Of a stretch of 64,000 bases of DNA, positions 8,511-39,500 are shown piece by piece; position 1 is the first letter of the stretch; every line of letters begins with the position of its first letter. This DNA is from Crossaster papposus (Eukaryota; Echinodermata; Asteroidea; Velatida; Solasteridae): positions 186,001-250,000 of the forward strand of contig JBAIAA010000774.1 in NCBI GenBank assembly GCA_037893245.1. Reading direction: 5' to 3'. A program made the position numbers and the translations under genes. The notes beneath the pieces were generated by a model, which was not told the origin of the DNA, did not search any database, and saw nothing but the letters and a program-made list of their open reading frames with translations.

Positions 8511-8699
8511 GATGTCAATACATGCACAAGGGCTTTTATTATAACATACACTTGATGTCAACAAATACTTCAGGGAAGCGGTTCTCGGTAATGCGCAACA
8601 TTTGCGATTGTGAAAAAACAGGTGTTGCTTAGAAGGGTATTAGGCCCCATTTTATCAAATTTCACCCCCACCCCAGATGGTGGTCATTGAACTTGAAAA

Positions 8700-9400: not shown

Positions 9401-9728
9401 ATGTAATATTTTGTATTCCCATATTTGGGTATATATTTTATTTTTATTTTTTGAAAAGTTTATTTTGGTGATTCTACTTACATATCCTCACTTGAATAAC
9501 ATTTGCTGAAGCATATAAGTGACTGAATAATTATGAGAACACAGTAATTATCCAAAATGACAACTTTGTGACCCTATAAATGTGCGCACATTACACTGTC
9601 TCCAGATATCATCATGTAGTCAGTATTGGTGAGCTTCAAATTCACCAAGTTGCTTACTGGCACAGTTATCATATTAAAACCTTATGAAAAATCATATGAA
9701 CAATAATAACATTGTGATATTTAGCCCA

Positions 9729-9980
9729 GAAAACAAAAACTGGGGGAAAATGGTGTGTCTATAAATTGGGCTAAAAAGTAGTTAAAGGGTTGCCTAACAT
9801 GGAATACTTGAACAAGTTCAAGGAAATCCCCAAAATACATTTTAACGTAGATATGATTATTGTAAGCAACAAAAATCTTAAATTTGGGGGGTTTCCTTGA
9901 ACTTGTTCAAGTCACTCAACCCTTTACCTACTTGTTAGCCCAATTTAGGGACACGTCATTTTTTTCAAGTTTTTGTTTGC
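9729..9980. mobile_element. Imperfect inverted-repeat element (MITE-like)
   Basis: The left arm (about 9,729-9,840) contains AATTGGGCTAA, GTTAAAGGGTTG and CTTGAACAAGTTCAAGGAAA. The right arm (about 9,890-9,980) contains their complements in reverse order. The loop is about 50 bp. No coding capacity or clear target duplication is visible. Confidence 0.7.
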
Positions 9981-10342
9981 ATTTTTAATGGCCCCTTAGT
10001 TTGGTTAGTTTGGTTAGTTAGGTTAGTTGGGTTAGTTGAGTTAGTCTTGCATACGCACTGTGGACCTCCGAACAATATAGGTCCACACGATGCGGGAAGA
10101 GGTTACGTTTTGTGGACTTGCACACGTCCACAATCCGTTTTTCAGTTTCCGAAAAAGAGCGCTAGAGGAAAAACGGGTTAGGGTTATATATAGAAAAGAT
10201 AGAAGGGACAGCTGAGAGGCCCATAATCCAAATTTGAGGGTAAATTTGTTTTGGGGAAGCGAGAAAAATGAGTATTTAGTCAAAGTTTGTTAACTACACG
10301 AAGACAAAGGAATGTCCACAGTGCGTATGTAAGGTAAAGCAT

Positions 10343-10922
10343 GTTGGGTTAGTTGGGTTAGTTGGGTTAGTTGGGTTAGTTGGGTTAGTTGGGTTAGTTG
10401 GGTTAGTTGGGTTAGTTGGGTTAGTTGGGTTAGTTGGGTTAGTTGGGTTAGTTGGGTTAGTTGGGTTAGTTGGGTTAGTTGGGTTAGTTGGGTTAGTTGG
10501 GTTAGTTGGGTTAGTTGGGTTAGTTGGGTTAGTTGGGTTAGTTGGGTTAGTTGGGTTAGTTGGGTTAGTTGGGTTAGTTGGGTTAGTTGGGTTAGTTGGG
10601 TTAGTTGGGTTAGTTGGGTTAGTTGGGTTAGTTGGGTTAGTTGGGTTAGTTGGGTTAGTTGGGTTAGTTGGGTTAGTTGGGTTAGTTGGGTTAGTTGGGT
10701 TAGTTGGGTTAGTTGGGTTAGTTGGGTTAGTTGGGTTAGTTGGGTTAGTTGGGTTAGTTGGGTTAGTTGGGTTAGTTGGGTTAGTTGGGTTAGTTGGGTT
10801 AGTTGGGTTAGTTGGGTTAGTTGGGTTAGTTGGGTTAGTTGGGTTAGTTGGGTTAGTTGGGTTAGTTGGGTTAGTTGGGTTAGTTGGGTTAGTTGGGTTA
10901 GTTGGGTTAGTTGGGTTAGTTG
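10343..10922. repeat. 58-copy 10-bp minisatellite (GTTGGGTTAG)
   Basis: 580 bp of perfectly repeated GTTGGGTTAG is read directly. The unit resembles a telomere-like GGGTTAG word but is 10 bp long and internal to a satellite. It gives long artefactual frames on the minus strand (repeating LTQ and PTN) that should not be annotated as genes. One GGG run per 10 bases suggests G-quadruplex potential. Confidence 0.95.
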
Positions 10923-11874
10923 AGTTAGTCTTGCATACGAACAATATAGGTCCACACGATGCGGGAAGAGGTTACGGTTTGTGGACTTGCCCAGGTCCAC
11001 AATCCGTTTTTCAGTTTCCGAAAAAGAGCGCTAGAGGAAAAACGGGTTAGGGTTATATATAGAAAAGATAGAAGGGACAGCTGAGAGGCCCATAATCCAA
11101 ATTTGAGGGTAAATTTGTTTTGGGGAAGCGAGAAATAATGAGTATTTAGTCAAGGTTTTTTAACTACACGAAGACAAGGGAATGTCCACAGTACGTATGT
11201 AAGGTAAAGCAACGTGGGTTAGTTGGGTTAGTTGGGTTAGTTGAGTTAGTCTTGCCTACGCACTGTGGACCTCCGAACAATATAGGTCCACACGATGCGG
11301 GAAGAGGTTACGGTTTGTGGACTTGCCCAGGTCCACAATCCGTTTTTCAGTTTCCGAAAAAGAGCGCTAGAGGAAAAACGGGTTAGGGTTATATATAGAA
11401 AAGATAGAAGGGACAGCTGAGAGGCCCATAATCCAAATTTGAGGGTAAATTTGTTTTGGGGAAGCGAGAAATAATGAGTATTTAGTCAAGGTTTTTTAAC
11501 TACACGAAGACAAGGGAATGTCCACAGTACGTATGTAAGGTAAAGCAACGTGGGTTAGTTGGGTTAGTTGGGTTAGTTGAGTTAGTCTTGCCTACGCACT
11601 GTGGACCTCCGAACAATATAGGTCCACACGATGCGGGAAGAGGTTACGGTGTGTGGACTTGCACACGTCCACAATCCGTTTTTCAGTTTCCGAAAAAGAG
11701 CGCTAGAGGAAAAACGGGTTAGGGTTATATATAGAAAAGATAGAAGGGACAGCTGAGAGGCCCATAATCCTAATTTGAGGGTAAATTTGTTTTGGGGAAG
11801 CGAGAAAAATGAGTATTTAGTCAAAGTTTGTTAACTACACGAATACAAAGGAATGTCCACAGTGCGTATGTCAT

Positions 11875-18473: not shown

Positions 18474-19010
18474 CCCTAACATAAGCCAACAAGCGGACAT
18501 AGTTATTTCTGTGTACCAGCCATCCTCTATGAATTACTCTCTTCTCTTGGTCATTCATTACAAAGCGACCCCTTGCAACTGCTCTGCATGTCTGCCATCG
18601 TGGCGATACAGTCAAAGTTTACTGTACTTGGCGATACTCAATCACATCTGGCTTGTAAAAGATTAAAAGGAATAGACGCGGTGAAAACCACTTCCAGGGA
18701 TAACAATGATGAAGTTATCCTTCCATACACTATCACAAGAGTATTATTATGGAAATTTTCAGAGAGCTAGCGAGACTTGGGGACCTCTCTATCTTTATTT
18801 CTTTTGTCGGGTAATTACGTGTGCCTCTCATTATTATGGTAATTGCCAAGCGCTCCTACTTGTAAAAAGCGAAACCATCACCGACCAATTGCATACTCGG
18901 ATACGCTACCGATAGCCAATAATTATTCATTACAGTGATTTTGGGAGGATACGTAGTTCTGTAGGTCATTTACGTACCCGTCCGTAATAGTTTTGCAATC
19001 GCCCTACTAG
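18474..19010. mobile_element. Second MITE copy, lacking its right terminus
   Basis: Starts with the same CCCTAACATAAGCC and shares most of the body of the first copy, including GCATACTCGGATACGCTACC and TTTGCAATCGCCCTA. It carries extra internal sequence (about 18,620-18,740). It stops at about 19,010 without the right inverted repeat, directly against polymerase-related sequence. Confidence 0.7.
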
Positions 19011-19011
19011 G

Positions 19012-19518
19012 ACCCATTACCTATACGGCCGACAGACGCAAGATGTGTACAATTTACGATTGGGTCCGACATCTCCGCCGGTAGGGTTAACCGGTGGCGT
19101 GTCACTGGACGAAGGGTTGAGGGGTACTTTTCCAACTTTTACCTGTAGAGTAAAACTGAACCTGTCGTTCGAGTTTGTTTTACGAAATATAGAGACGGGC
19201 GAATTGCGTTACTACCATTCTAGTTTTAACAACGCGCAATTTTTAACCCACCCCATCACTATAGCTTCGGAAGACGATTTTGAAATGTTCCTCCAAAAGA
19301 TACGCGACATGGACGTGCTGCAACACGCCGTGCACGCGCGTCCAGACACCAAGTGGGTCCTTGCCGATATCAGTAACGTCACCGTTTATGCAAATCGCCC
19401 TAGAAACGCGCACCAAGCACCTCGTCGATAAATATACGGAAGTAATGGAAAAACACCCGACGGAAGGTGTCTGTTTAGACGACCTGCATCACTTTGAGCG
19501 CATATTCGAAGTCTTGCA
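19012..19518 (+). pseudogene. N-terminal part of Polinton DNA polymerase B, disrupted
   Basis: The frame open from about 19,012 to 19,431 carries FVLRNIETGELRYYHSS and KWVLADISNVTVY, in the style of the N-terminal region of Polinton protein-primed polymerases. Another frame then continues with CLDDLHHFERIFEV up to about 19,518, where a LINE begins. The frame change near 19,400 and the short distance to the next block suggest loss of intervening sequence. The 5' end abuts a truncated MITE, so the true start is missing. The rest of the gene resumes at 23,653. Confidence 0.75.
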
Positions 19519-19597
19519 GCTAAACGGCCAGCCTGACACCGAGGAGCAGGGATCCTCCCCAACCCCAAACCATTTGCCCCATCCCTCAAAAACTAAA

Positions 19598-20503
19598 ATG
19601 TCCTTAGAATTTGACGAGCAGCTGAATCAATACCGGAAAAAGCACAAGAAGCTGACCACTGCAAAGGACAAACCGGCACCTACAGTAAAACAATCAGCAT
19701 CCACACCAACGGAACACCACTGTGCAGATGTGCTTCTAATCGGTGACTCGATGATAAAACGGCTTCAGCCCAGGAGATTGAGCAGGCAAAAGAAAGTGAT
19801 GTGCCACACCATGCGTGGAGCAAAAATCCAAGATCTTGCTCCCCACGCCATACAGCTGTCGACCAAGCACGACGTATCTCGGGTAATTCTCCATGTTGGG
19901 ACCAACAACACATCCGACAACCCGGAGACTATTGCCGCTCAGATCACCTCCCTCGGCGAGTCACTACAACCAAGATCAGTGACAATATCTTCGATCATAC
20001 ACCGTAAAAACCAAACGGTGCCACAGTGCAAGAGAGTAGATGATTCTAATAATTTGCTCAAGTCCATAGCAAAGCGAAATAACTGGGGCTTCATTGACAA
20101 CGGTAACATAAACTCAAACCACTTTGTGTCGGACGGTGTGCACCTCGACTCAGCAGGAGTGCGCCTACTTGCCACGAACATTATCCAACACATCAAAGGA
20201 CCACCAAAGACTTTTGATAGTCGCATTCCACATCAGAAAACCCCTTTCGGTCAGAGTTTGTACTCTGATGTCCTGACGAAGCGGACTACAGCGACCCGTG
20301 ATGTTCCGACGGGTTTTCTAATGGCCAATCAGTATTACCCGCATCCCCATCAGAAACGGCACCAAATCAACCTCAATCAACGACGGCAGCCAGTATCCCA
20401 GACCAGAGCACCCGCCCCGACACATTATCGAGGCCAGGAGTGGAACCAACATCTGAAAATGGTCAGGGAGCTGCTCAACCCACAAGGCAAGGTTCGAAAA
20501 TAG
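19598..20503 (+). CDS. LINE ORF1 with SGNH-hydrolase (esterase) domain
   Basis: 301 residues from ATG 19,598, the first ATG inside the LINE; the same frame runs further upstream but into polymerase-derived sequence. The central domain shows SGNH blocks: LLIGDSMIK (block I, nucleophile Ser), HVGTNN (block III) and SDGVHLDSAG (block V, Asp and His). The N-terminus is charged and the C-terminus basic with many Gln and His, suiting RNA binding. Esterase-bearing ORF1 proteins are known from CR1-type LINEs, where they are thought to help form the ribonucleoprotein. The last 64 bases overlap ORF2. Confidence 0.85.
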   Translation: MSLEFDEQLNQYRKKHKKLTTAKDKPAPTVKQSASTPTEHHCADVLLIGDSMIKRLQPRRLSRQKKVMCHTMRGAKIQDLAPHAIQLSTKHDVSRVILHVGTNNTSDNPETIAAQITSLGESLQPRSVTISSIIHRKNQTVPQCKRVDDSNNLLKSIAKRNNWGFIDNGNINSNHFVSDGVHLDSAGVRLLATNIIQHIKGPPKTFDSRIPHQKTPFGQSLYSDVLTKRTTATRDVPTGFLMANQYYPHPHQKRHQINLNQRRQPVSQTRAPAPTHYRGQEWNQHLKMVRELLNPQGKVRK

Positions 20504-23364
20504 ACATAACAGATGGTATTATCTGCAATCAAAGTTCCGAGGGTTTCTCATTCGCCCATCTTAATGTAAGAAGCCTCATAAACAAATTTGACCATTTTAA
20601 GATTGTAATGTCTAAAAATCCATTCGACATCATCTGTCTAAACGAAACCTTTTGCGACGCCTCAATCTCTGATGACGAAATAACTCTACCAAATTATTCT
20701 ATTGTCAGAAAAGACAGGAACCGACATGGTGGCGGTGTTGCAATTTACATTCGAGATACCCTAATGTTCTCTCGTCGTGAAGATCTCGAAATATATGATG
20801 TCGAGTGTATATGGGTTGAAATTAAGTGCAAACAAAGACAGCCTGTGCTTATCAGTTCTATTTATAGGCCTCCTTCAAGCTCTGTCGAATTTATGGGAAA
20901 ACTGAGTGATATCCTTAATAAGGCCTCGTGTGAATGTAAAGAAATTATTACAACTGGGGACTTTAATTGTGATGTTTCAGAGGAATACGATAGTATGCAA
21001 TCAAATACAATTATTTCTTGCTTTAGTTTGTTCCAAATGGCGCAACTCATACATGACCCAACACGTGTCACTGAATCTACTAAAACTACCATCGATCTCA
21101 TTTTTAGTTCCCACCCAGAGCTCATAAAGGACTGTGGTGTTTGACCAGTCCTAATCAGTGATCATTATCTTGTTTATGGGATACACAGTTGGAAAACACC
21201 AAAACTGAAAGGTCGTTCAATAAATTTTCGATGTCTAAAAAATATAGACAGTGATGCATTTACGGACGATCTCCGTAATGCACCATGGCAAGATGTTTTT
21301 GGTTGTTATGATGTGGATAATGCATGGTCTATATGGTACTCCATATTTATGAGTATTATTAACCTCCATGCGCCAGTCAAAACCAAACGCATTCGGGGTG
21401 CCTCAGTACCATGGCTCGATAGCGAAATTCTTAAACTTATGCGGCAGCGCGATCGTGTACACAAAATTGCAAAGCACACAGGCTTACAAATTCATTGGGA
21501 TTCATACAAAAACCTGCGGAACAATGTTACTAATAAAATCCGCAGTAAAAAGAGTAATTACTACACATCCGCCATAGAAGAAAATAAAAGCAACTCTTCT
21601 ATGCTGTGGAAAACTCTGAAGGAGGTACTCCCTAAGAAACAAAAAACTGTACCAAATTCGATTACTTCCCCAAATGGTGAAAATATTGACAATATCGCCG
21701 ACATTGCTGATACATTAAATGAACACTTTTCAACAATCGGCAAGCGTACTGCTGGAAATTACCCTTTGCGTGAACTTGAAATAGATGACAATACTGACGC
21801 CTCTATATTTGATTCTGTTGATGAAGATTGCGTAGTACCTAACATTACAGAAGAGTTTGTTCGAAAGCAAATATCATCCATGTCGGTTGGGAAAGCAACA
21901 GGTCCGGATGGAATTAGTGTTAAAATGATTAAAATTGCTTCACCTTATATCATTAAATCTTTAACTCATATTGTTAACCTGTCTATAAGATGTGAGCGAT
22001 ACCCTAAAGATTGGAAACATGCTTTAGTAACACCAATTCACAAGGGAGGAGATAAATGTAGTACAGGTAACTATCGTCCAATTTCTATACTGCCAATTAT
22101 CTCTAAGATTTTAGAAAGATGGGTGCACTCATCGGTATATAGATATCTTGATGAAAATAATCTGATTCCTAGTTGCCAGTCGGGATTTAGACCCCTGCAC
22201 TCAACTGAAAGCACCCTACATGACTTAACAAACAAGTGTTTTGCGGCCATGGAGAATGGACAAGTTACAGGCAGTGTGTTTATAGACCTCAGTAAAGCAT
22301 TTGATTGTGTTGATCATGAAATCTTACTAAAGAAACTAGAAAGGATGAACATGTCATCTTCTGTAATAAATTGGTTTAAGTCGTACCTAAGTGAACGTAG
22401 TCAGTCTGTGAATATTGGCGGCACCATATCAAAGGTCCTGTCCGTAAACACTGGTGTTCCACAGGGGTCGATACTAGGTCCACTTTTATTCATTGTTTAT
22501 ACAAGTGACCTTCCATTTTGTATTGCCCCAAACTGCAACTTATTTATGTATGCAGATGACTCCACATTAACGTGTAGCTCCTCCAACATTAATATAATAG
22601 AAAGTAGCTTAAATACAGCTCTTACTAGTTTTCACAACTGGTGCGGAAGAAACAAGCTAGCTTTAAATGCCACCAAAACCAAATGCATGCTTATTGGTAC
22701 TAGGCAGAAAATATCTAATGTTAATTTAAATGTATGCATTGCTGGTAGTCGTATTGAAAATGTGAAGTCTTATAAATGTTTGGGTGTAATTATTGATGAA
22801 GCATTAAGTTGGGGCCCACATGTCGAATACGTAAGAAAAAATGTGGTGTCTAAATTAGGTATACTAAGAAGAATCCGTGATTGTATTCCTCAGCTCAGCT
22901 TGCACACACTATTTGTAAGTCTAGTTATGCCAACATTAGAGTATTGTTGTACTGTGTGGGGAGGAAGGTACATATCTCACGATAATGTGTTAAACAAATG
23001 TCTCAAAAGAGCCGCGCGAATAATCCTTAAATGTACCTTCCTCACCCCTTCAGAGGATATGTTTGCTCGTCTTAATTGGACCCCTTTTTCAAAAAGAGTC
23101 AAGTCAAAAAAGGCTATCCTTGTCTTCAAAAGTATCAACAAAATGACTCCTTTGTACATGACAAATATTTTCAAACCACTTACAGTAATTCGCGAAACAA
23201 GGCAATCAACCCACACGGCACTGAAAGTTCCTTTCGCCAAAAAAGAATGCTACGCCACAAGTTTCGCTGTGAGTGGTGCAAATATTTGGAATAATCTGCC
23301 CGAACAATTGCGAACATTGGACTCATTAAGCACATTTAAATCAGAGCTCCGACATGCCATCTGA
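20440..23364 (+). pseudogene. LINE ORF2: APE endonuclease and reverse transcriptase, one nonsense codon
   Basis: One frame of 975 codons with a single TGA at 21,142-21,144 (codon 235). The N-terminal APE-type endonuclease shows FAHLNVRSL, ICLNETF, SIYRPPS and TTGDFNCD before the stop and ISDHYLVY just after it. The reverse transcriptase has KATGPDGIS, YRPISILPIISKILER, FIDLSKAFDCVDHE, GVPQGSILGPLLF and the catalytic MYADDSTL. The C-terminal region ends GANIWNNLP. It nicks target DNA and copies element RNA in the nucleus. The frame opens at a GTG (20,440), and a non-ATG or re-initiated start is possible because ORF1 overlaps. The stop falls inside the endonuclease, so this copy is probably inactive. 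Confidence 0.9.
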
Positions 23365-23652
23365 GTGTTAGATATTATGCCAATTGCGCTGATCTACGGA
23401 GTTAGAACTTGGTTGCCACTATAATGTGGAGCCGGATAGGAATTTCCCCTTCTTATTTTTCACCTAAAAGGTTTTTTATCTCGTAAATCAGAATTAGTAT
23501 TAATGTTTAGAATTCCTGTAATATCCTTGTATTTATAATATGTACTGTTATTTTATTTGATGATGTATGCAGGGCCCCAATGAAAACCAGTTTTAAACTG
23601 TTTGGGCACACCCTGGGTAAAGAAATGGAATAAATAAATAAATAAATAAATG

Positions 23653-26600
23653 TCAGAGTGTTCAGTCTCGCTCGCGAAGAGTACGAGCCCGGAGCGGGGG
23701 AGTACAGAGTAGTAGCCAGTCTGGTGCGGAGACCCCTGTGTAACCACAAAAAAAACATGAACGTTAACTTGTACGAAGCCCATTTTTCGTACATAAAGGA
23801 AATGAACAAGTACAGTCAAGTATATCCCTGCCCCAAATTCAAACAGGTGTTTAACAGATCTGCAAACCTAAGAAAGCACGTAGCGCACTGCGACCAGGGG
23901 GTAAGACATAAGTTCCCGGGTGGGTGCTACCGACTACCAGAATTCGTGTTCGACGAGTTGGTCGAAGCGGGTATAGAGATAGATGAGGGCATGAAGTATT
24001 ATCCTTACCGCGCCACCTATGATTTTGAAGTGTATTTCAAACCAATAGAGCAGAAGTACGAAAACATAAAGGGGCTTCAAGCTCAACACGAGTTACTGAG
24101 TGTAAGTTTCAACAGTAACGTTCCCGGTTACGACACACCAGTCTGTCTCGTAACCGACGGAGATCCGGCCAAACTAGTGTCCGATATGGTGGAATGGTTA
24201 CTCTTGATTGGGGAAGAAGCGTACTTAATTATGATGGAGAAGTTCGAATCTGTCTTCGAACAGCTCGATACACTGATACATCAACAAGAGGCCGAACTAG
24301 CGCACGAGCGATCCGAGCTTCCGAACCGAGACTCTGACGAGGAGGATCGTCCGACCCCCCGAACCAAGGCCGAAACAATTAAAGACAAACTAGAAGACTA
24401 TCTCCACAAGGTTCCCGTCCTGGGTTTCAATTCCGGAAAGTATGACGTGAACATCATCAAACGGTACCTCTACCAAAGATTTGACGGGAACGAACAACTG
24501 CACATCATACGAAAATCGGACTCGTACATGTCCATCAGCACTGACAGACTAATATTCCTCGACATTTCAAATTATTTGGCTCCCGGGTGCTCGTACCCAA
24601 ATTTCTGAAGGCGTACGAATGCTCTCAGACGAAGGCGTTTTCCCCCTACGAGTGGGTTGACAATCTCGACAAATTGGACTATCCCGAACTGCCCCCCCCC
24701 CCCCCCCCCCCCCCCACGAAGCTTTTTATAGCAATCTCCAGGGCGAAAATATTACCGACGACGAGTACGCGTATTGTCAACGGGTCTGGCGAGAGGAGGG
24801 TCACACGACTTTCAGAAATTTCCTAATGTGGTATAATAACCTAGACGTCGCACCCTTCCTTGAAGCCGTCGAGAAAATGTTTGTATTTTACAAACAGAAA
24901 CACATAGACATGTTTAAGTCGGTCATTTCCGTACCCGGGCTGTCCCTTCAGCATTTTTCTGACCAAACCGCGAGATGTATATTTTTCGCTGATAGACCAT
25001 GCGAATAAAGGCCTGTACCATAAAATAAAGGATAACATCGTGGGCGGGCCCTCCATTATTTTCCACAGGTATCACGAGACAGATAAAACTCGTATTAGGG
25101 GTGGTAAAATGTGTAAGAAGGTGGTGGGGTTCGATGCCAACGCGCTGTACTTGTGGTCGCGCATGCAACAAATGCCGGTGGGTACCTTTGTGAGGCGAAA
25201 AGAAGCAAATCAGTTCAGGCCCGTACGAAGTCACAGGTACGGTATCATGGCAACCGAGTGGTTAGATTGGGAAGCCAAAGCAAACAATGTCTGCATCCAA
25301 CACCAATTCAATCACAAAGAAAAATCTGTGGGGAGTAGGAACGTTAGGGTGGACGGTTATTGTCAAGAGACCCATATCAGTTTCAGGGTTGTTTTTGGCA
25401 CGGGCACGAGTGTCGACTCAATCCAAACGAGGCCAACACCGTCAATAAGAAACGGAGGGAGGTATTGAGGACAGAGACCCCAAAAACCTCTTCCTACATC
25501 CGGGCACTCGGGTATAATCTTGTCGAAATGTGGGAATGCGAATGGGAAGACATCCAGAAAAACGATCCAGACATGAGACGATTTTTGAACTCCGTACGAC
25601 TTCCACATTGTAATGCGTGGACAATGTCTACGGAGAAGATCTTAAAGGGGGTCAGGGACGGTTCCATATTTGGGTTGGTAGAATGCGACCTTCGGGTACC
25701 GCCCGAAAACAGAGATTATTTTGCCGAGATGCCACCCGTATTCAAAAATGTGGACATCTCCATGGCCGATATTGGGGATCATATGCGGCAGTACGCCGAA
25801 GAGATCAATATTATGAACAAACCAAGAAGAAGTCTGATCGGTAGCATGTTCGGGACAAAAGTACTACTCGCAACCCCACTGTTAGTTTGGTATTTAGAGC
25901 ACGGTTTGGAGGTCACAAGGGTTCACGAAGTGATTTAATACAAACCTAATTCTTGCTTCGAACAGTTTGGTAACCGGGTCAGTCAAGCCAGGAGGGATGG
26001 GGATAGTGACCCCAATAAAGCTATCATAGCGGACACTATGAAATTACTGGGTAATTCGGCCTATGGGAAAACCGTGACGGATCAGTTAAAACATGTAAAC
26101 GTTCACGTGTGTTCTGACGCAGGTGCCCCCACCAAGATCAACGACAAACGATTTAAGGCACTCCATTCGGTAGGCGAGGGGATGTACGAAGTAGACATGT
26201 ACAAAAAAGCGATCAGTTTGAATTTACCCATTCAGATTGGTTTCTTCGTCTACCAATACGCTAAATTGCGCATGGTTGAGTTTTACTTTGACTTCCTGAT
26301 GAAGTTTGTCGATCCACGCGATTTTCAGATGTGTGAAATGGACACCGATTCGGCTTACATGGCCATATCGGGCGACAGTCTTGGATGACGTAATCAAGGC
26401 CGGCATGAAAGACCAATATCACCGGGTCAAGCACCTCTAGTTTTCGCGTCAGAACACGCCCGAACAGTACAGTTATGATAAGAGGACTCCGGGGCTGTTT
26501 AAGGTAGAGTGGGAGGGCTCTGGTATCGTTGCACTGTGTAGCAAGACGTACCTTTGTTTCGGGGCAACCGAGAAGTTCAGTTGTAAGGGGTTAAACAGAC

Positions 26601-26797
26601 GAAACAACGAACTCACCAAGGAGAAATACTTGACCGTGTTAAACACAAGATCGTTGGGCGGGGGTGTCAACAAGGGTTTTATCATGAAACACGGCGTAAT
26701 GTTTACCTACGAACAGAGAAGGACGGCCCTGACCTATTTCTATCCCAAGCGAAATGTCCAAGACGATGGGGTTTCTACAACCTATTTAGATATATAA
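23653..26797 (+). pseudogene. Main part of Polinton protein-primed DNA polymerase B, multiply broken
   Basis: Exonuclease motifs include TYDFEVYF (Exo I) and LGFNSGKYDVNII (Exo II). Polymerase motifs are GFDANALYLW (A), KLLGNSAYGKT (B) and MDTDSAYMA (C). Breaks seen are a TGA at 24,606, a poly-C tract (about 24,690-24,714) with a frame change, frame changes near 25,005 and 25,370, a TAA at 25,936, a frame change near 26,384 and a TAG at 26,438. The frame then runs open to TAA 26,795. The final stop lies inside a TATATAAA word. In intact Polintons this enzyme replicates the element from a protein primer; here it cannot be made. The 5' portion lies beyond the LINE. Confidence 0.93.
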
Positions 26798-27641: not shown

Positions 27642-28286
27642 ATGAGTTCGATACTTAAACATCCGTTTACCTGCGTCATTGCGGGGCCTACCGGGTCGGG
27701 AAAAACACAATTTGTGACGCAGTTATTGAACCCTTCGGATGGCGATGTCATTCAACCGTCTCCGCAAAATATTGTGTGGTGTTTTGGGGCTTATCAGGAT
27801 GCTTATGACCGGTTGTCCGACACCGTCCCCGACATTCGTTTTGTGGAGGGGTTTCCCGACGATCTTCTCGCCTCCCTGGATCGAACGAAGAGAAACTTGG
27901 TTGTGATCGACGACCTCATGTCGGAATCTGGTAGTAATAAAAAGATTACCGAACTTTTCACCAAGGGAAGTCATCACCACAATCTGTCGGTTATACTCGT
28001 ACTGCAAAATCTGTTTGATCGAGGTAAAGAAATGCGCACAATCAGTCTGAACGCGCATTACATGGTGCTCTTTAAAAAAACCAGAGATGCTTCACAGATC
28101 ACGCACTTGGCACGACAGATGTATCCGAACAAACCCAAATTCATGGTCGAGGCCTATCGCGACGCGACGAGTTCCCCCTACTCTCATCTCTTCGTGGACT
28201 TGAAACCCGACACCGAGGAGCACATGTGTCTCAGATCTGACATCTTCAAGGGTGAATACCCCACGGTTTACGTTCCAAAAGTATAA
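27642..28286 (+). CDS. A32/FtsK-type genome-packaging ATPase
   Basis: 214 residues from ATG 27,642, placed after a TATA box, with an uninterrupted frame. Walker A is GPTGSGKT (residues 15-22) and Walker B is LVVIDDLM (about 86-93, acidic pair at 90-91). A conserved polar LQNLFDRG follows, as in the HerA/FtsK-type ATPases of Polintons and related double-jelly-roll viruses. It would drive DNA into the capsid. The length is normal for the family and no break is seen. The stop codon lies inside the TATA box of the next gene. Confidence 0.93.
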   Translation: MSSILKHPFTCVIAGPTGSGKTQFVTQLLNPSDGDVIQPSPQNIVWCFGAYQDAYDRLSDTVPDIRFVEGFPDDLLASLDRTKRNLVVIDDLMSESGSNKKITELFTKGSHHHNLSVILVLQNLFDRGKEMRTISLNAHYMVLFKKTRDASQITHLARQMYPNKPKFMVEAYRDATSSPYSHLFVDLKPDTEEHMCLRSDIFKGEYPTVYVPKV

Positions 28287-29327: not shown

Positions 29328-30353
29328 GTGTATTACGACACAAACCATCCTTCTGGTTTCGGTGGTGTGGATGCTGTCTATCGCGCAATTAAAAAAGACG
29401 GAGTGGACATCAGCAGGAAGCGGGTGGTTAGATGGTTGCGTCAACAACCTACTTATACGCTACATAAACCCATCCGGAGACGGTTCAAACGAAATCGGGT
29501 CATCGTGGGTGGCATCGATCATCAGTGGCAGGCGGATCTGGTAGACCTGACCTCGTTATCTCGGCACAATGACGGTCGCAAATATTTACTTACGTGCATC
29601 GACATATTTTCCAAGTTCGCCTGGGTCGTCCCCCTCGAGGATAAAACGGGGGCGTCGCTAATAAAGGCTTTCGAACGAATTTTACGGGATGGGCGTAAGC
29701 CGCGCCTCCTCCAGACAGATAAAGGTACCGAGTTTACAAACCGCAAATTTCAGAATTTCTTGGCAAAGAAGAACATCGAATTCTTTACCACTCACAACGA
29801 AACAAAAGCCAGCGTGGTGGAGAGGTTTAACAGGACTCTTAAAACAAAAATGTGGAAATACTTCATGGCCCGAAACACCTACGCCTACGCGGCCGTATTA
29901 CCCGAGCTGGTGGCCGCCTACAACCACTCTTTTCACAGGAGTATAAAGAGGACGCCGACCTCCGTTACCCCCGCAAACTCCGAGGTCGTTTGGCGCACGC
30001 TGTATGGCGCCCCTAACGACGAACGGTCCGTCGTCACCGCCTTCAAGTTTAACGTGGGGGATACGGTCCGCATAAGTATTGCGGCGAGAACGTTCAGTAA
30101 GGGTTATCTCCCCAACTGGACCACCGAACTTTTTACAGTCGGCAAAAGAATTCCCCGGGACCCCCCGGTGTACAAGTTGACGGATTACGACGGCGAAGAA
30201 CTACTACAAAGAGTCGACAAAAGGGATGACATGTACGAAGTAGAGAAAGTGTTACGCACTAAAAAGCGTCGCGGTGTGACGGAATATTTTGTGAAGTGGC
30301 TCGGTTATCCCGACAAGTTCAATAGCTGGGTGAGGGGGCTAGTCCGTATATAA
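29328..30353 (+). CDS. Retroviral-type integrase with C-terminal chromodomain (Polinton)
   Basis: 341 residues counted from a GTG; the frame is open upstream without an ATG, so the true start is unclear or lost. Core catalytic residues are Asp70 (WQADLVDL), Asp131 (LLQTDKGTEF) and Glu165 (SVVERFNRTL). An N-terminal region with conserved RRRFKRNRVIVGGID precedes the core. The C-terminus carries a chromodomain-like motif (YEVEKVLRTKKRRG ... YFVKWLGYPDKFNSW), which in other integrases targets modified histones. The enzyme would insert element DNA into the chromosome. Its stop codon lies within the TATA box of the penton gene. Confidence 0.93.
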   Translation: MYYDTNHPSGFGGVDAVYRAIKKDGVDISRKRVVRWLRQQPTYTLHKPIRRRFKRNRVIVGGIDHQWQADLVDLTSLSRHNDGRKYLLTCIDIFSKFAWVVPLEDKTGASLIKAFERILRDGRKPRLLQTDKGTEFTNRKFQNFLAKKNIEFFTTHNETKASVVERFNRTLKTKMWKYFMARNTYAYAAVLPELVAAYNHSFHRSIKRTPTSVTPANSEVVWRTLYGAPNDERSVVTAFKFNVGDTVRISIAARTFSKGYLPNWTTELFTVGKRIPRDPPVYKLTDYDGEELLQRVDKRDDMYEVEKVLRTKKRRGVTEYFVKWLGYPDKFNSWVRGLVRI

Positions 30354-30405: not shown

Positions 30406-31149
30406 ATGGATTCCTTTTACGTGACGCTCCCCAGCAACAGCAGCATGGATACCTACCCGGACAACGCGTTGAGTCACTACAGCGTAAATCTACCCACTGC
30501 TCTGTCGTTCGAGGGAAAATGGGAGGTGTGTCTCGCCGATATAAGTTATCCCCGCCGGTGGCTCAACATCGCAGAAGGTCACAATCACATCTACTGCAAC
30601 GCCGAAGAGATTGACGGAGGCGTACATCTTCACCACATTCCCGAAGGGTTTTACCAGACACCCGACGAATTAATCGCAAAGATTACGCCCTCTATCGAAC
30701 ACGGCGACAAAATACGCATCAAGTACAACAAATATCTTCAAAAAGTAGTTATCAGAACGGAGGACGGTATCAGCATTACTTTTGTCAAACGTCTGGCTCA
30801 CCTGCTGGGTTTTAACAAGGGTGTGACTATCACCGGTATAGCGAAGTCAGACAGCTCCGTGGATCTGAAGCAAATCCACAGCCTGTTCGTGTACACCAAC
30901 ATCATCGAATACAACATCGTCGGGGACACGAGAGCACCTCTTTTACGAAATGTGAGCGTGCAAGGCGAGTACGGTGATATCGTAACGATGACGTACGACA
31001 GTCCGCATTACGTTCCCCTCAAACAGAAATTCATCAACACCATCAACATAGATATAAGGGACGACGTGGGCCACTATATCCCATTCATCGGCGGGAAGGG
31101 CATAGCGAAACTACACTTTAGAAAGAGTCGCTCCACGTACTTCAACTAA
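30406..31149 (+). CDS. Penton-like minor capsid protein (Polinton)
   Basis: 247 residues from ATG 30,406, uninterrupted. The N-terminus (DSFYVTLPSNSSMDTYPDN then YSVNLP and WEVCLADISYP) is the typical opening of Polinton minor capsid proteins, single-jelly-roll pentons occupying capsid vertices. It follows the integrase by 52 bp with its own TATA box and is followed by the pX-like gene after 17 bp. No break is seen. Capsid function is inferred from family membership. Confidence 0.88.
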   Translation: MDSFYVTLPSNSSMDTYPDNALSHYSVNLPTALSFEGKWEVCLADISYPRRWLNIAEGHNHIYCNAEEIDGGVHLHHIPEGFYQTPDELIAKITPSIEHGDKIRIKYNKYLQKVVIRTEDGISITFVKRLAHLLGFNKGVTITGIAKSDSSVDLKQIHSLFVYTNIIEYNIVGDTRAPLLRNVSVQGEYGDIVTMTYDSPHYVPLKQKFINTINIDIRDDVGHYIPFIGGKGIAKLHFRKSRSTYFN

Positions 31150-31604: not shown

Positions 31605-32932
31605 ATGGCACTGCTACACGACCACTCAGAAGAGTGCACAAAGAGTGAACTCGATCTATTTACTCTACCACCCACCCAGACTAGCATAGAAAAGGGACAG
31701 TATGTGGAGTACCACCCCATCTCTAATATCGCCGACGGCGGTCCCATCCAGTTTGTTGTTCCCGGTTATTATTTATTTATTAACCACTTCCAACAGCGGA
31801 GGAACCGCCAATTCGACCCTTCCCAGACTCAACTCTACGTCAAGGTGAAGGTAACCAAAGGGGACGGCACCAATCTGGTCGACGCGGACGTGGTCGGTCC
31901 GTGCAACCTGTTTTTACAAACCCTCTTCACCCAAGTGGACGTGACCCTGAATGAGCGACTTATTTCTGCCTCCACTCCAACGTACCCGTACAGAGCCATG
32001 ATCGAAACGTTGCTCAGTTACGACAGAGGTGCCAAGACATCGCAGCTGACGGCTTCGGGTTGGAGTAAACACACCGCTGGCAAGATGGATAACGTCAACT
32101 GTACTGCGGGTGACGCAGAAACAAACGCGGGCTTGAAAAAGAGACGCAGACGCATCTGGAACAGTCGAACCGTAGACCTGATCGGGCCTATTTACGGAGA
32201 TTTGTTCTTCCAAGACAAACATTTGATTAACGGAGTTGATCTGAAAATAAAACTGATTCCCAGCAGCGACGCATTTTCTCTCATGGCTTCCGGGGAAAAC
32301 CCCGCCTACAAGATAAAGATTATGGACGCGTCTCTGTTTGTAAGAAGGGTCACGGTCAGCTCCGCGGTGATGCTCGGCCACATCAAAGCTCTGGAGAAAG
32401 GGACCGCCAAGTATCCCCTCCGACGCGTCGTCTGTAAAATGATGTCCGTACCGAGGGGAAACCTTACACTCACTCAAGATCACGTGTTCTTGGGACAGTT
32501 ACCCAACAGAATCGTGGTGGGTTGCGTATCCAACGTCGCCTTCAATGGGTCGTATGCTAAAAACCCGTTCAACTTCCAGCATTTCAACGTCAACTACGTG
32601 ACGGTGCACGTCAACGGCGATCAGATTCCCCACACCCCTCTGAAACCCCTCTGAAGAACTGCGTCAGAGCCTACCACACGCTGTTCTCCGGTATGGATAA
32701 AATGTACATGAACGAAGAAGGTAACGACATCAGTCTTGACCAATACCCCGACGGGTATACACTGTACGCTTTCGACCTGACCCCCGACTTGGCGTGCGGC
32801 GGAAACCTTCGTCTGGACATGCACTTTGCCGAGCCCCTCGCCGAGACCATCAACATCATCATCTATGCCGAGTTCAACAACATCTTAGAAATTGATCAAG
32901 CTCGTAACATCATCTTCGACTACAACAGCTAG
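31605..32932 (+). pseudogene. Hexon-like major capsid protein (double jelly roll), frameshifted
   Basis: From ATG 31,605 the frame runs 349 codons to TGA 32,652 with features of Polinton major capsid proteins: DLFTLPPTQTSIEKGQYVEY near the start, IDLIGPIYGD-like text (VDLIGPIYGDLFFQ) and GVDLKIKLIPSSD in the middle. The remaining C-terminal part (YPDGYTLYAFDLTPDL to the stop at 32,930) is in another frame. The switch coincides with a perfect 11-bp tandem duplication at 32,634-32,655. The C-terminal jelly roll would be incomplete. It was the main shell protein of the predicted virion; as it stands the gene is broken. Confidence 0.9.
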
Positions 32933-32943
32933 ACGATACGACC

Positions 32944-33459
32944 ATGGACACGGAGGAAATAACGTCGATCTTAAAGCGTGACCGCTTTACCCGTCAAGTC
33001 TTCAGGGGAGTGTTTGCTAGCGACCAATTACCGAGACATCATCTCCCGCATCCCAGCGCCATCGTCGTCAACACGGATCCCTCAACCAAGCCGGGACAGC
33101 ACTGGGTGGCCATTTACATCACCGGGGACGGCGTGGGAGAATATTTCGATTCTTACGGACAACCCCCGAGCCTGTCGTCTATCGAAACTTTCCTAAACAA
33201 AAACGCCCGTCGGACTGTACATAATCGCATTAATTTACAGGGCCCTCTGTCGGCTGTATGCGGTCAATATTCCCTGTTTTTCTTATTACACCGTTGCCGA
33301 GATATCGACATGGACACTCTCGTCGGTTTTTTTTCAACCGATAAAAGGGGAAATGATATTGCGGTCAACGAGTTTATCAAAACAAACTTTCCCGGCGTTA
33401 ACGCAAAAGTGTACGACGTGTCTTTCGTTACTCGACAGAGTTCAAAGTCTTTGGTATAA
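32944..33459 (+). CDS. Adenain-like cysteine protease (Polinton)
   Basis: 171 residues from ATG 32,944, intact. Catalytic residues line up with the adenovirus-protease family: His53 in GQHWVAI, Asp69 in EYFDSYG, Gln99, and Cys106 in AVCGQYSLFFL. The Gln-to-Cys spacing of 7 matches the family. It would mature the capsid proteins. It starts 12 bp after the major capsid stop codon, the last of the rightward late block. Its stop lies in a TATAATA word that is echoed in the repeats downstream. Confidence 0.92.
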   Translation: MDTEEITSILKRDRFTRQVFRGVFASDQLPRHHLPHPSAIVVNTDPSTKPGQHWVAIYITGDGVGEYFDSYGQPPSLSSIETFLNKNARRTVHNRINLQGPLSAVCGQYSLFFLLHRCRDIDMDTLVGFFSTDKRGNDIAVNEFIKTNFPGVNAKVYDVSFVTRQSSKSLV

Positions 33460-34023: not shown

Positions 34024-34280
34024 AAAACTACTTTAATGACAACAACTATATGTTTTACCTTTCGTATTATTATTATTTGAACGCAGGTAATACAATTAAT
34101 AAACGAGGAAAGGCGTATTTGTTACACCGATCCTTTTACTCAAATTACAAAATCAACACCACTTTAACGACAACAACTACGTGTCTTACAATTCAGATTA
34201 TTATTTGAACGCAGGTAATACAATTCACGGACGAGGACAGGCGTATTAGTTACACCGATCCTTTTACTCACGCCATTACA
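34024..34280. repeat. Tandem duplication of about 130 bp at the 3' end of a minus-strand gene
   Basis: TTTGAACGCAGGTAATACAATT and CACCGATCCTTTTACTCA occur in the same order at about 34,075-34,145 and 34,204-34,272. The copies differ at scattered bases. The right copy contains the last codons of the 147-residue minus-strand gene. Confidence 0.75.
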
Positions 34281-34711
34281 AAATCAAGGAGTATTGTGAC
34301 GTTGGGGAATGAATACGAATTGAAAGTTTGCGCGATGTCTTTGGTTTCGTTTTCCCATCCCAGCAGGATTTCTTGAGTTATACCGTTCAGAGTTTCTTTG
34401 GTAAGGTCCGCGTAAGTAAAGCCCGAGACTACCAAAAGGTGACCCACGGCGTAGAATATATCGATGATCTCATTCGCGTCTAAGGATGACGCCACATGTT
34501 CATAATGTTTGGTAACAAAGTCCTCCACGTGATACTCTGGCGTGTCGCCGAAAAACAGACAGGCGTGGTCGTCTTGGCTGGCCCAGTGCTCCAGACAGCC
34601 TTTGCAGGGAAGTTGTCGTTGTATGCGGTGCACCCTCTGCACTATGCGCTCCTTGATTATTTTACCTAAAATCCTCTTGATGAGTAGTTTGACCCGTGCT
34701 CTACAAAGCAC
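34268..34711 (-). CDS. Polinton protein with Cys motif (unknown function)
   Basis: About 147 residues on the minus strand. The listed start is a GTG; the frame is open to about 34,746 without any ATG, so the true start is not known. The N-terminal third is basic and helical. A cysteine-rich motif, LPCKGCLEHWASQDDHACLF, may bind zinc, and the C-terminal half is helical and acidic. Similar Cys-motif proteins occur at the same place in other Polintons, but I know no function. It follows the WW-PC4 gene on the same strand with almost no gap. Confidence 0.6.
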   Translation of the reverse strand: MLCRARVKLLIKRILGKIIKERIVQRVHRIQRQLPCKGCLEHWASQDDHACLFFGDTPEYHVEDFVTKHYEHVASSLDANEIIDIFYAVGHLLVVSGFTYADLTKETLNGITQEILLGWENETKDIAQTFNSYSFPNVTILLDFVMA

Positions 34712-34748
34712 TACGTCACCTTCTGGATCATAAACAGAAAGATAACAG

Positions 34749-35381
34749 TTAAGAGTCAGTTATTTTATTCAGCGCGTCATTGATGTCGGTGGCGTGACTC
34801 ATCAACTCCAGCCACTGTTCTGCAGGGAGGTTCAGACCCTTATTCCCCGCCAGCATCTTGCGGTGAAATTCGTTCCAGTAGTATTCTCTGATATTGACGT
34901 AAGGACGGCCCTTGAAACGCTTCACGGTAACGTAACGCTCACCTCCGATGGGAAACTTGACGGCCTTTTTCTCGTTCTCCTCCTGGTCAGGATCGGGCTC
35001 GAATCGGCGTTTTCTGCTGGGCATTTTCCCCTTCAGGTCCTTCATCGGCACGGCTGGTGGTACCAATGCGTCGTCTTTAGCAGTACCCAGCTCGTTCATG
35101 GCGGCTACCAACACGTCGGACTTGGGTTTGTCGGGCACCATCTTCTGCTCACGCTGCTGGACATCTTGGAGGTTCCACACGCTGTGTCGCGTGTACATAT
35201 TGAAATAGTACACCCTGCCGTCCCCATTCGTGGCTTCACGCCAACCGGCAATGAACATGTTGTGAGAAATATTACGGGTGTTTTCGGTCTCAACTCCTTC
35301 ATCCGCCGACGGAGGAGGTGGATTCGGTGCCGGGCTGTAATTCTGGGTTGGGTCGGTTGAAACCTTCGGGAGAGCAGCCAT
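34749..35381 (-). CDS. WW domain plus PC4-like domain protein (Polinton)
   Basis: 210 residues from the first ATG (35,381); the frame also extends upstream to a GTG. A proline-rich stretch (residues 11-24) is followed by a WW-like domain (about 45-72) with Trp47, GRVYYFN and Trp69, 22 residues apart as in WW domains. A basic linker PSRKRRF may be a nuclear signal. The C-terminal domain (about 142-206: KFPIGGERYVTVKRFKGRP, INIREY-like NIREYYW, KGLNLPAEQWLELM) matches the fold pattern of PC4/SUB1 single-stranded-DNA-binding coactivators. It may regulate transcription or replication of the element; that is inference. A minus-strand TATA box lies upstream, and the frame is intact. Confidence 0.75.
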   Translation of the reverse strand: MAALPKVSTDPTQNYSPAPNPPPPSADEGVETENTRNISHNMFIAGWREATNGDGRVYYFNMYTRHSVWNLQDVQQREQKMVPDKPKSDVLVAAMNELGTAKDDALVPPAVPMKDLKGKMPSRKRRFEPDPDQEENEKKAVKFPIGGERYVTVKRFKGRPYVNIREYYWNEFHRKMLAGNKGLNLPAEQWLELMSHATDINDALNKITDS

Positions 35382-35458: not shown

Positions 35459-35466
35459 CTTATATA
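35459..35466 (-). promoter_or_regulatory. Minus-strand TATA box of the WW-PC4 gene
   Basis: TATATAAG on the minus strand, 78 bases before ATG 35,381. It marks leftward transcription converging on the capsid block. Confidence 0.6.
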
Positions 35467-35474
35467 CGCGCCGG

Positions 35475-36530
35475 GTAATTATCAGCACCCAGACTCCAAG
35501 CGGTATTAAACAGAGTGATTAAAACCTTTCGAACACACATTTATTCCCTTAGTAATAACCGGGTTCCCGCACTGATTTATTATCTAATTAATAACCCAAC
35601 TTTCGAAAGGAAGAGAATAAATGTTCCCTGAACCTGCATTAATCAAGCGTCATGTAAGCCAATGATTGGCCAAATGCAACAGATACTGCGCGCTATAAAT
35701 GTACGCGTAGAACGTTTGTATATATACGCGCGGCATTTTTCAAAATGCGCGTGTCGTCTGTTAACGCTAGCGCGTTGCTATGCCTTCGGTTCGATCCATT
35801 ACCAGCGGTCATATCCCAACTCAGTCATTATCACCCAGTAATAACCGGGTCCTCGCACTGTTATTACCTTTAATAACTACCTTTTTAACGAGAACAATTG
35901 TGAAAATGCTTCAAATTTCGTAACTTGTCTTCGGCGATATTTCCACTGTTTTGTGTTCATGTTTAGGGGCCATGTTTTAGCTTATGCATGGTACCCTGTC
36001 TCTTCAATATGTGTTGTTATTATAACCCATACTTTGAGACCAGACTAGCTGACCACTGATGCCCACCGTACATAGCAACGCGCTAGCGTTAACAGACGAC
36101 ACGCGCATTTTGAAAAATGCCGCGCGTATAGATACAAACGTTCTACGCGGATAGCGCGCAGTATCAAGATTTGACGCGTCCTTGTTACAAGTTACCGTAG
36201 AACTGTTGCATTCGGCCAATCATTGGCTTACATGATGCTTGATCAATGCTGGTTCAGGGAACATTTATTCGCTTCTTCTTGAAAGCCCATGATATTACTA
36301 CCTGATACACTCCACGTGATCGAGTCTCGACCAATCAGAAGCCATCAACTCTCCTAGGTATTTATTACTAAGGGAATAAATGTGTGTTCGAGAGGTTTTA
36401 ATCACTCTGTTTAATACCGCTTGGAGTCTGGATGCTGATAATTACCCCAGCCGAAGGCGAGGGTAATTATCAGCACCCAGACTCCAAGCGGTATTAAACA
36501 GAGTGATTAATACAGACGGAACACACATTC
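35475..36530. mobile_element. Large inverted-repeat element with an extra terminus copy
   Basis: GTAATTATCAGCACCCAGAC...GTATTAAACAGAGTGATT at the left is found inverted, ending near 36,450. Inner arms also pair: AATGTTCCCTGAACC, GCCAATGATTGGCC and TAACGCTAGCGCGTTGCTAT (about 35,620-35,780) match the complement at about 36,070-36,265. A third copy of the terminus follows in direct orientation at 36,459-36,530, so GATAATTACC and GGTAATTATC face each other around 36,437-36,477. No coding frame. It lies immediately right of the last Polinton gene. Confidence 0.8.
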
Positions 36531-39500
36531 ATAAATACTTTTTTGTAAAATTCAGTTAAAAAAACCCCGAAAATCACGGAAATTTGTCGCAAGTAAATTT
36601 CGGTGTTTTGCCATTCTGTCTGTGTCAAATGACATGTTTCCGCCTCTGTCGCTCTACACAATACGTGCAATAAAGCGTATTTACTATGAACCAGACTGTT
36701 ACTGCCATTGGCAACCTCGTTCCCAAGGTGTCGAACTGTACGCGCCCAACACTACCCGCTCTTACTATTGGAGACGAGGTACGGTTCAGGGTTGGAAATA
36801 AAGTGAGCCCCGGGGACGGAATTTTGTTGCCAGCTGGTTTTAAACACTTCCAGCCATGTCTTTATCGTCCGTTTAATACCGGCCACGTGACGGGAACTCG
36901 ACTAATAGGAATGCCTAAACTGTCCCAGGTATTTATGAATAGGCCTACCTAAATAAAGAAGGTTTATCGTAAACTGTCGTGAATCTCGACGTGAGCGCGC
37001 GGTGTACAAAAAACACCTTTCTGGAGTTCGAAAAAAATTGCAATTGCAATTGAAAAACACATACAACAATAATCGCTGAAAATGCGTATACTGCTTAGAA
37101 TCAGGGAAATGTACCAAAAGAGGCGTGGTTTGTTAATTTAAAAACGACGCCCACAACTACATTATCGTTAAAATGATGTCAAATGTTTGCAAGTTCAAAC
37201 TGGTTTGCACCCAAACATGCGTACTACTTAGAATCAGGAAAACCCCTAAAAGGGGCGTGGCTTGTTAATTTTAAAGTGATATTATATACATCAAACATAA
37301 AAACAATATTAATTATCATTTGAAAACATTGTGGACATTTTCCTAGATTCAACTAACCGTTAGGGACTAAAAAAAACAATTGGTGTTCATTGTTGCGTGA
37401 ATATATAGCGGTTTTCACTTTTTGCCCTTTTTTTTTCTAAAAATAGCCACAGAAAATGACCTAGAGGGTCCATGTTTTGGGAGTCTGGTACGTGTAGTGC
37501 AGCGGTCTTTTCGTCTGTCGTAACCCATTTTGTACTCTATGAACTCAACGTGTTCATTTGGCATCATTTTCTTAGTGGTACCTCGCTCGACAATTTAGTA
37601 CCCATTTTGTTACCCTTTTGGGGGGTCCCCCGGTGGTACATGCAGCTGGTGGTGCCCGGCAGACTCTCATTTCAGGTGACCCCTACACACTCCCATAGTC
37701 AGATATTGGTACCTAGTTCATCTTACCACTATTTGCATCGCGGCGACGTTGCGGGCGGAGGATCCACATTCACTTGGTAAATCTTTGCACTACGAGCATG
37801 ACGTATATTGCTTGCGCTGTTTTTTCGGGTATCCACGTATGTTCCTATCCGTGCCCACCCATACCCGGCTGGTTGACCAGCCAATTATTAAGTTGGATTG
37901 CCATAACGGGTGCCGGAAGGGAAGAGCTCGATTCTAATGGTTGGAAATTGGGCCAGGTTTGCGATTCCGATGGAGGTACTATAGAGCCTGGATTGGTGTT
38001 CGTTTTAGGAAACGAGGTAGGAGATATCTAAATTCTTGCCGGTGGTCCAATGTGGCACTGGTAAGGAGGTACAATTTTATAGGGCAGCCATGTCATTTTG
38101 TCAATGTGAAATTTGCTAATGGTTATTAGGCTGCGAAAGTGTCGTAATAATAATTTTAGCAAGTTCGAAATTCGTTCTTTTAATACCATTTTGTGTGTTT
38201 TCACATACCATGTTATGTAGGAATTCCTCTATGCGTGTACGTGCGTTGATGCAATGACAGGGTCATCAGCGCGACGGGCGTGGCACATTAAGTAGGGTAC
38301 GCAGTCTTTGTATTGTACAAAGCTATTGTACAAAGCTATTGTGCTTTGGATAATAGCACGCGCTCAAGCATGCACGGCGCGAAATTTAACTGCTAGTAGA
38401 AGATGGCATCGCATTCCTGCGGGATTTTCATGAAGGCGTGGGTATTGTCAAAAATATATGTGGATATGGATAATTTATTTATTTATTATCAGTAGGCCTG
38501 TATCGGACCGGGTTTTATCATGGTTCATATAGTAGCACTCATTAGTAATGCAAAATACCGGTCCAGTTATCAGAGTACCTAATAATATGCCTAATGTAAA
38601 GATGGTCTAAAACGAAGAGGATATAAGGTGGCTTTCAAAATGCAAAGTATGGTACGGCTAGGCTACGCATGTTCGGCGTTCCTGAAAAATCTGAGATTTA
38701 AGGAAGTAAGGCCTATGGCAGTTAAAGCCAGCAGTCTCAGTAAACCCTTCCGGGTTATGAGTATAGTGTCAAATGGTTGTTATCCTTTGTTTCACAATTA
38801 TTAATTTGTTCTTTACAAAATATGATTTACGTTCATCTTCGTGACAATTGTGCATAAACAAAAAGAAAACTTAATCCCCAATCGGGCTGATCGAAATAAT
38901 TAATTTGGTAAACTTTTAGGTAGATTTTTGGAGAATAGCTGTGGAAAGGCCTATATCAAAGAAATGTTAAAGCTCTTAGACCACTGTAGCGCCAGCTTAT
39001 GCAATTAGGTTAGTGAATCACCATGGGCACTAGGGGATGTTTCATATCAGATGCGGCAAGTGAGTCCGTAGGTATAGCCAAGTGACTACCAGATGTGTGG
39101 TTGTTTTCCAGACCTTGTCTAAATTTAGATCGAGTTGTTTATCTCAGAGAGAAACTTGTAGTCCTATAAAAGGACATGTCATACCTTTTCTGAGTTAAAA
39201 TATTATCACTGGTGACTGCAATGGCAATACGCCATAAACATACGTGTAACTGCACGTGCTGGTAGCAAGGGGTAGGGTTGACAAGGTTACATAGATGGAT
39301 CTACCTCTTTGTGATTTGACGGACGCAGCACCGTTGAAGTATCTCACGTTTCCTGTTGATTTAATCCCATATGCACAGGACATGTGACGGCTATGGTGTG
39401 GCAGGGGTCATAGTGAAGCAGAAGCTTCATCATCAGAGGCACTAACAAGATGGAGGAGGTCCTTGGAGCAATAGAGGGGTCAAGCTTTGCCCTGGCTTCA

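Follow-up and report, generated by a model that had tools for sequence, protein, structure and literature searches.

A conserved WW–PC4 gene of starfish Polintons that looks alternatively spliced

What does a mobile element make from a gene that joins a WW domain to a PC4-type domain, and for what would it use the product? The window examined here, a stretch of 64,000 nucleotides from the starfish Crossaster papposus (contig JBAIAA010000774.1), contains such a gene among genes of the Polinton type. The first-pass annotation had described it as a WW–PC4 fusion in a Polinton gene. The fusion is real and conserved, but this description is incomplete, because the splice signals of the gene are also conserved and the protein is probably only one of two isoforms. 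The features of the gene region are as follows (in the splice sites, a slash marks the exon–intron boundary).

34749..35381, minus strand: WW–linker–PC4 ORF of 210 amino acids, the predicted unspliced isoform (ORF, Pfam, genome copies, and profile search)
35172..35246, minus strand: WW domain, residues 46–70 (Pfam PF00397 and profile search)
34965..35033, minus strand: basic linker, residues 117–139, common to both predicted isoforms (sequence)
34797..34955, minus strand: PC4 domain, residues 143–195, with its 3' part from 34942 inside the predicted intron (Pfam PF02229)
34723..34942, minus strand: predicted alternative intron of 220 nt, GAG/GTGAGC ... GATCCAG/AA, phase 1 at both ends (donor and acceptor conservation)
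34268..34722, minus strand: predicted second exon, encoding the N147 domain (CxxC ... SQxxHxC, modelled as helical), with no in-frame ATG ahead
35459..35466, minus strand: TATATAAG, 85 nt upstream of the WW–PC4 ATG, a candidate promoter signal (pattern match)

The ORF coordinates given earlier were right, and the strand, which had not been stated, is minus. Trp47, Trp69, and the GRVYYFN motif (residues 55–61), on which the WW domain had been proposed, were all present, and profile searches placed both domains above their Pfam cut-offs (WW, 28.9 bits against 26.9, E = 1.1e-6, residues 46–70; PC4, 52.8 bits against 25, E = 2.8e-14, residues 143–195). The linker is indeed basic, particularly around residues 117–126 (KGKMPSRKRR). 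At the level of sequence, the front half was shown to consist of a proline-rich tail, a WW domain of the PCIF1/Prp40/TCERG1 type, and the basic linker, and the unspliced back half to be of the PC4 type.

Among the solved WW domains, that of PCIF1 was the best by single-domain score (41.9 bits), and the better WW domain of Prp40 scored 35.3 bits; the yeast Prp40 WW pair matched the protein at 2.4e-9 in a search of PDB sequences. In the AlphaFold2 model, the two Trp residues (47 and 69) lie in a three-stranded sheet (strands 47–51, 57–61, and 67–68, with pLDDT of about 75–78). The Prp40 WW domain matched the window model in Foldseek with E = 0.05 and an rmsd of 1.1 Å over 30 columns, and the PCIF1 WW domain was the best Foldseek match of the starfish gene model P0029 (E = 0.04). 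PCIF1, Prp40/PRPF40A, and TCERG1 are the best solved relatives, with which the domain has in common an aromatic triplet before the conserved Asn. It differs from them in lying within a 210-residue mobile-element protein, and we know of no PC4 domain in PCIF1, Prp40, or TCERG1. Because the WW domain resembles those of these three proteins, docking on RNA polymerase II is likely. The PCIF1 WW domain is described in PMC10544176 as binding the Ser5-phosphorylated CTD.

The back half matched human PC4 as a solved relative at about 1e-11 among the PDB sequences. The ssDNA contacts R70, F77, R86, and K101 are kept as R149, F156, R165, and K181, whereas the R100 place is taken by Asn180. The W89 place falls on Y168 or W169 in two differing alignments; the invariant Tyr168 is the better reading and agrees with MoSub1. 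The likeness to PC4/Sub1 proteins (human p15 and MoSub1) lies in the domain and in the retained equivalents of R70, R86, K101, and F77, and the differences in the fusion to a WW domain, the encoding by an element, the Asn at R100, and the predicted removal of the domain by splicing. The AlphaFold2 model, based on a 13-sequence alignment, had a mean pLDDT of only 60.4, with values of about 75–80 across most of both domains, and contained PC4-like strands at 141–177 and helices at 187–209. With Foldseek, the window model had no match at E ≤ 0.001; the best, together with the Prp40 WW domain, was human PC4 at E = 2.2e-3, but with an rmsd of about 10.5 Å. Of the structures anticipated in the first-pass annotation, the WW fold is thus backed by the model, in which its strands appear, whereas the PC4 call comes mainly from sequence. 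The window PC4 domain is 39% identical to a likely host SUB1 exon (33 residues).

The gene lies beside the following element genes.

27642..28286, plus strand: packaging-type (A32-like) ATPase (Pfam Pox_A32, 3e-7)
29328..30353, plus strand: integrase with chromodomain (Pfam rve, 2e-14; Chromo, 9e-9)
30406..31149, plus strand: ORF in what we take to be the minor capsid gene place (position only)
31605..32654, plus strand: ORF in what we take to be the major capsid gene place (position only)
32944..33459, plus strand: adenain-like protease ORF (Pfam Peptidase_C5, E = 0.004, 17.3 bits, below the cut-off of 21.3)
23646..26794, with an N-terminal piece at 19009–19398, plus strand: PolB fragments, not all in one frame (found by tblastn with the PolB ORF of lineage B)

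The two capsid-place ORFs had no match among the PDB sequences and nothing above the Pfam cut-offs. The roughly 4 kb between the PolB pieces (19400–23600) contain reverse-transcriptase-like ORFs, by eye those of a non-LTR retrotransposon. With its PolB in pieces parted by this stretch, beside Polinton-type genes, the window element is a damaged Polinton, in which the rve integrase, PolB (broken here), and the packaging-type ATPase occur together. In a lineage-B copy (L012, 4861–9504), PolB runs unbroken through 1547 codons (Pfam DNA_pol_B_2, 2e-17), with C2H2 zinc fingers preceding the polymerase part. The element is like Polintons/Mavericks and adintoviruses in its rve chromodomain integrase, PolB, A32-like ATPase, and adenain-like ORF. 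PMC11071296 describes adintoviruses with a chromodomain integrase and PolB and includes an OTU-like part of PolB in their definition; PC4, a WW domain, and a splice, by which the present element differs, are not mentioned in its main text. In IMG/VR, neither the WW–PC4 protein, its profile, nor the capsid-place ORF had a relative.

No long inverted pair framing the element was found within 18000–45000, nor was its right end. The lineage-A homology of the window copy ends at 35473, and the window and the near-identical L002 have only about 92–98 bp upstream of the ATG in common with the other lineage-A copies compared (83–92 bp with L004), whereas those copies have 153 to 1,300 bp in common among themselves (at least 1,286 bp at 98–100% in L003 and L005–L008). 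Nested inverted repeats occupy 35473–36532 (35473–35782 against 36071–36447, 72%), beginning exactly where the homology to most lineage-A copies ends, which is consistent with either an insertion next to the gene or a truncation there. A long repeat array was also seen on the minus strand at 10290–11000, with LTQ and NPT in two overlapping frames.

The gene is repeated across the host genome (1.02 Gb), with 99 matches at E ≤ 0.001, 31 of which span residues 1–210 without a stop. The sequence comparison set comprised 68 sequences, the window plus 67 loci, among which L003 and L009 denote a single place, as do L004 and L010. The WW-bearing copies fell into lineage A, including the window, at 93–100% identity, and lineages B–E, whose representatives are about 42–49% identical; the PC4 domain of the window copy alone is 55–62% identical to those of lineages B–E and 27–31% to those of the PC4-only lineages. 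Among the copies checked, the TATA signal was restricted to lineages A and B and the PC4-only locus L024. Nine of the 20 retrieved stretches (L009, L010, L011, L014, L015, L016, L017, L019, and L020) combine a WW–PC4 match with all or part of the capsid-place ORF, and eight carry the match without that ORF, of which L012, L013, L023, and L027 carry PolB; in lineage B, the gene is near an unbroken PolB ORF. In the other four of these eight (L018, L021, L022, and L028), none of the eight genes searched was found except N147 in L018 and L022, and PolB was not found in L018, the one of the four searched for it. The remaining three stretches (L024–L026) are PC4-only. A domesticated host gene was rejected on the grounds of the dispersed copies, the element neighbours, and the several lineages.

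Some copies form head-to-head inverted Polinton derivatives (L010, 678–3934; L025, 2760–9901; and L017, 3304–5832 against 7373–9901), with arm identities of 97.6%, 99.65%, and 100%, respectively; the 64 mismatches between the L010 arms argue against a read artefact. WW–PC4 matches in inverted pairs also occur on contigs C53, C326, C354, C428, C556, C566, and C678.

Nei–Gojobori omega values were 0.04–0.13 for the WW domain (the five B–E pairs with finite dS) and 0.15–0.29 for PC4 (six pairs among B–E), although these are rough, as dS was often near or above 1 and comparisons of A with B–E were saturated or nearly so. On these sequence comparisons, purifying selection acts on both domains. Some lineage-A pairs that differ little had high ratios, the highest being 0.71 over the entire gene (window against L011); decaying or very young copies would be expected to show this.

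The predicted intron begins after the first base of the second Gly codon in the IGG at the PC4 start, ends just before the N147 ORF, and contains most of PC4 plus its stop. The codons GGA GGT GAG, which spell a consensus donor (GGAG/GTGAG), were present in all 59 sequences with IGGER, whereas the adjacent codons vary; the other nine of the 68 lack IGGER, seven being PC4-only and two damaged. When the five lineage representatives were compared, only 17 of 69 invariant degenerate positions kept one codon, and the three donor codons are consecutive among these. AGGTRAG occurs once in the WW–PC4 gene and nowhere in 4,395 nt of six other element genes. Before N147, all five lineages have an in-phase AG acceptor (picked by eye before the phase check), giving introns of 220 nt in A, 326–328 nt in B, 245 nt in C, 233 nt in D, and 261 nt in E, and second exons of 151–158 codons. 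Donor and acceptor were both kept in 32 of 32 lineage-A sequences from 30 places, which are recent relatives with many duplicates and not independent events. Furthermore, four starfish gene models use the junction. In P0029 and P0031 of Patiria and P0047 of Acanthaster, the WW domain and linker are followed by a switch to the N147-encoded protein at the first PC4 residues, and P0017 of Asterias makes the same switch without a WW domain. These models may be computed predictions that were led by the same strong donor. A conserved intron that would swap PC4 for N147 behind the tail, WW domain, and linker is therefore well supported, and the window protein is probably the unspliced form. In addition, P0006 and P0017 have the common start MCSHDTASTHQREQ and both lack a WW domain, one ending in PC4 and the other in N147, which could reflect another alternative event or one damaged copy common to both.

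The same arrangement could also arise without splicing, with WW–PC4 and N147 as ordinary neighbours, translation of N147 beginning by reinitiation or from a codon other than AUG, and chance or codon preference behind the constant GGA GGT GAG. Such an arrangement would suit three observations: the N147 ORF of the window begins with GTG, an ATG in frame with N147 lies upstream of it within the PC4 region of lineages C and D, and the annotation of the relatives P0043–P0046 makes them separate proteins with a Met start. We nevertheless regard it as unlikely, given the run of three constant codons, the only AGGTRAG of the gene, the in-phase acceptors of five lineages, and the junction that recurs in four gene models. 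N147 itself is under selection, as judged from omega values of about 0.11–0.25 (six B–E pairs, from dN and dS), although in lineages A, B, and E no ATG in frame precedes its conserved part. Pfam gave nothing above cut-off for N147, and the Foldseek matches listed for P0029 were to WW domains or at chance level, with no fold for N147 among them. An ORF with CEGC...PSQxQHxC downstream of the WW-less PC4 gene of L024 (6475–6858, minus strand) resembles the N147 motif (hhalign probability 30, E = 6e-4, over 45 columns around CxxC...SQxxHxC); this is a resemblance, and no homology is claimed.

Not every Polinton PC4 gene is built in this way. The host genome contained 111 PC4-family matches, and the seven PC4-only loci read in detail (L024–L026 and L069–L072) had no WW domain. 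Because the WW-less PC4 genes of L024 and L025 adjoin integrase and capsid-place ORFs, the WW domain is a feature of some Polinton lineages only. L070–L072 have a GAG/GTGAGT donor after PC4, and a CAG acceptor in phase 0 leads into at least 80 open codons in L071 and L072; an acceptor sequence is present in L070, but none passed the filter of at least 80 phase-0 codons. The predicted splicing would thus add a domain to PC4 in loci of the L071/L072 type and replace PC4 in the WW lineages. A large PC4 gene family (genome G000, contigs C433, C381, C287, and others) has frames of about 170 codons, without a WW domain in the one read (L069).

Outside this genome, a single-sequence search of a large protein database yielded 20 relatives of 88 candidates, and a profile search yielded 41 of 6,489, of which 19 carry both Pfam domains (precomputed); the named sources were Asterias rubens, Patiria miniata, and Acanthaster planci. 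No description of the fusion had been known to the first-pass annotation, and our searches of the literature on Polintons, Mavericks, or adintoviruses with a PC4 or WW domain, founding Polinton papers aside, likewise returned no description. What is new here is that the gene seems to be alternatively spliced, with the WW–PC4 protein as its unspliced product.

We favor, with a probability of about 0.6, the reading that the gene encodes a Polinton (adintovirus-like) regulator with one common front half and two alternative back halves. The WW domain would dock on the RNA polymerase II machinery, at its phosphorylated CTD or at another of its proline motifs, and the PC4 isoform, presumably a dimer as in other PC4 proteins, would hold opened element DNA and raise its transcription. 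In the spliced isoform, PC4 would be gone and the tail, WW domain, and linker would continue into the helical CxxC/HxC domain of N147, so that another effector would be brought to the docking site used by the PC4 isoform. With two effectors for one docking site, the splice ratio would set the programme. The control of host or element transcription proposed in the first-pass annotation is plausible, as the WW domain is of the PCIF1/Prp40/TCERG1 type and most PC4 DNA-contact residues are kept. By analogy with Prp40, TCERG1, and PCIF1, the WW half might even dock on the elongating polymerase or early spliceosome and control its own intron, making a self-regulating switch between PC4 activator and N147 effector that would time early and late element phases, but we consider this a long shot.

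Other uses of the protein can be weighed against this regulator. The PC4 isoform may be mainly an ssDNA-binding protein for element replication or repair, for which the WW domain recruits a host factor, with transcription secondary. The element carries PolB, close to which the lineage-B gene lies, and the title of PDB entry 4bg7 ties a phage T5 PC4 homologue to recombination-dependent replication; such a role is possible, although we lean against it, as the closest WW domains are those of proteins linked to the polymerase or to splicing, not those of replication proteins. It is distinctly unlikely that the protein damps host transcription as a competitor occupying the CTD. PCIF1 is reported, in PMC10544176, as an inhibitor of trans-activation and of the CTD phosphatase SCP1, which would be in line with such damping, but the selection on the PC4 half points to a DNA-binding use that a pure competitor would not need. 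Binding of a Nedd4/YAP-type WW domain to PPxY motifs of element or host proteins is extremely improbable, even though the integrase contains a PPxY, the sole one among the nine element products scanned. His after the conserved WW Asn is the mark of group I domains, the PPxY binders, and in 12 sequences this residue was Met, Ile, Val, or Phe and never His, so that group I was rejected; moreover, the Nedd4L WW domain scored far below those of PCIF1 or Prp40 (5.8e-4).

The early genes of animal DNA tumour viruses encode proteins with a common front part that are made by splicing. The regulator proposed here is like them in its working, in that one start is followed by alternative back parts, and differs in that PC4 would be exchanged for a CxxC/HxC domain. 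It bears on how Polintons are transcribed and on whether they follow a virus-like ordered gene programme. With a docking module of the polymerase type and an ssDNA binder in one conserved element protein, and splice signals by which the effector would be exchanged, the Polinton transcription programme becomes directly testable and, if the proposed reading is true, a virus-like transposon would draw two regulators from one promoter by splicing.
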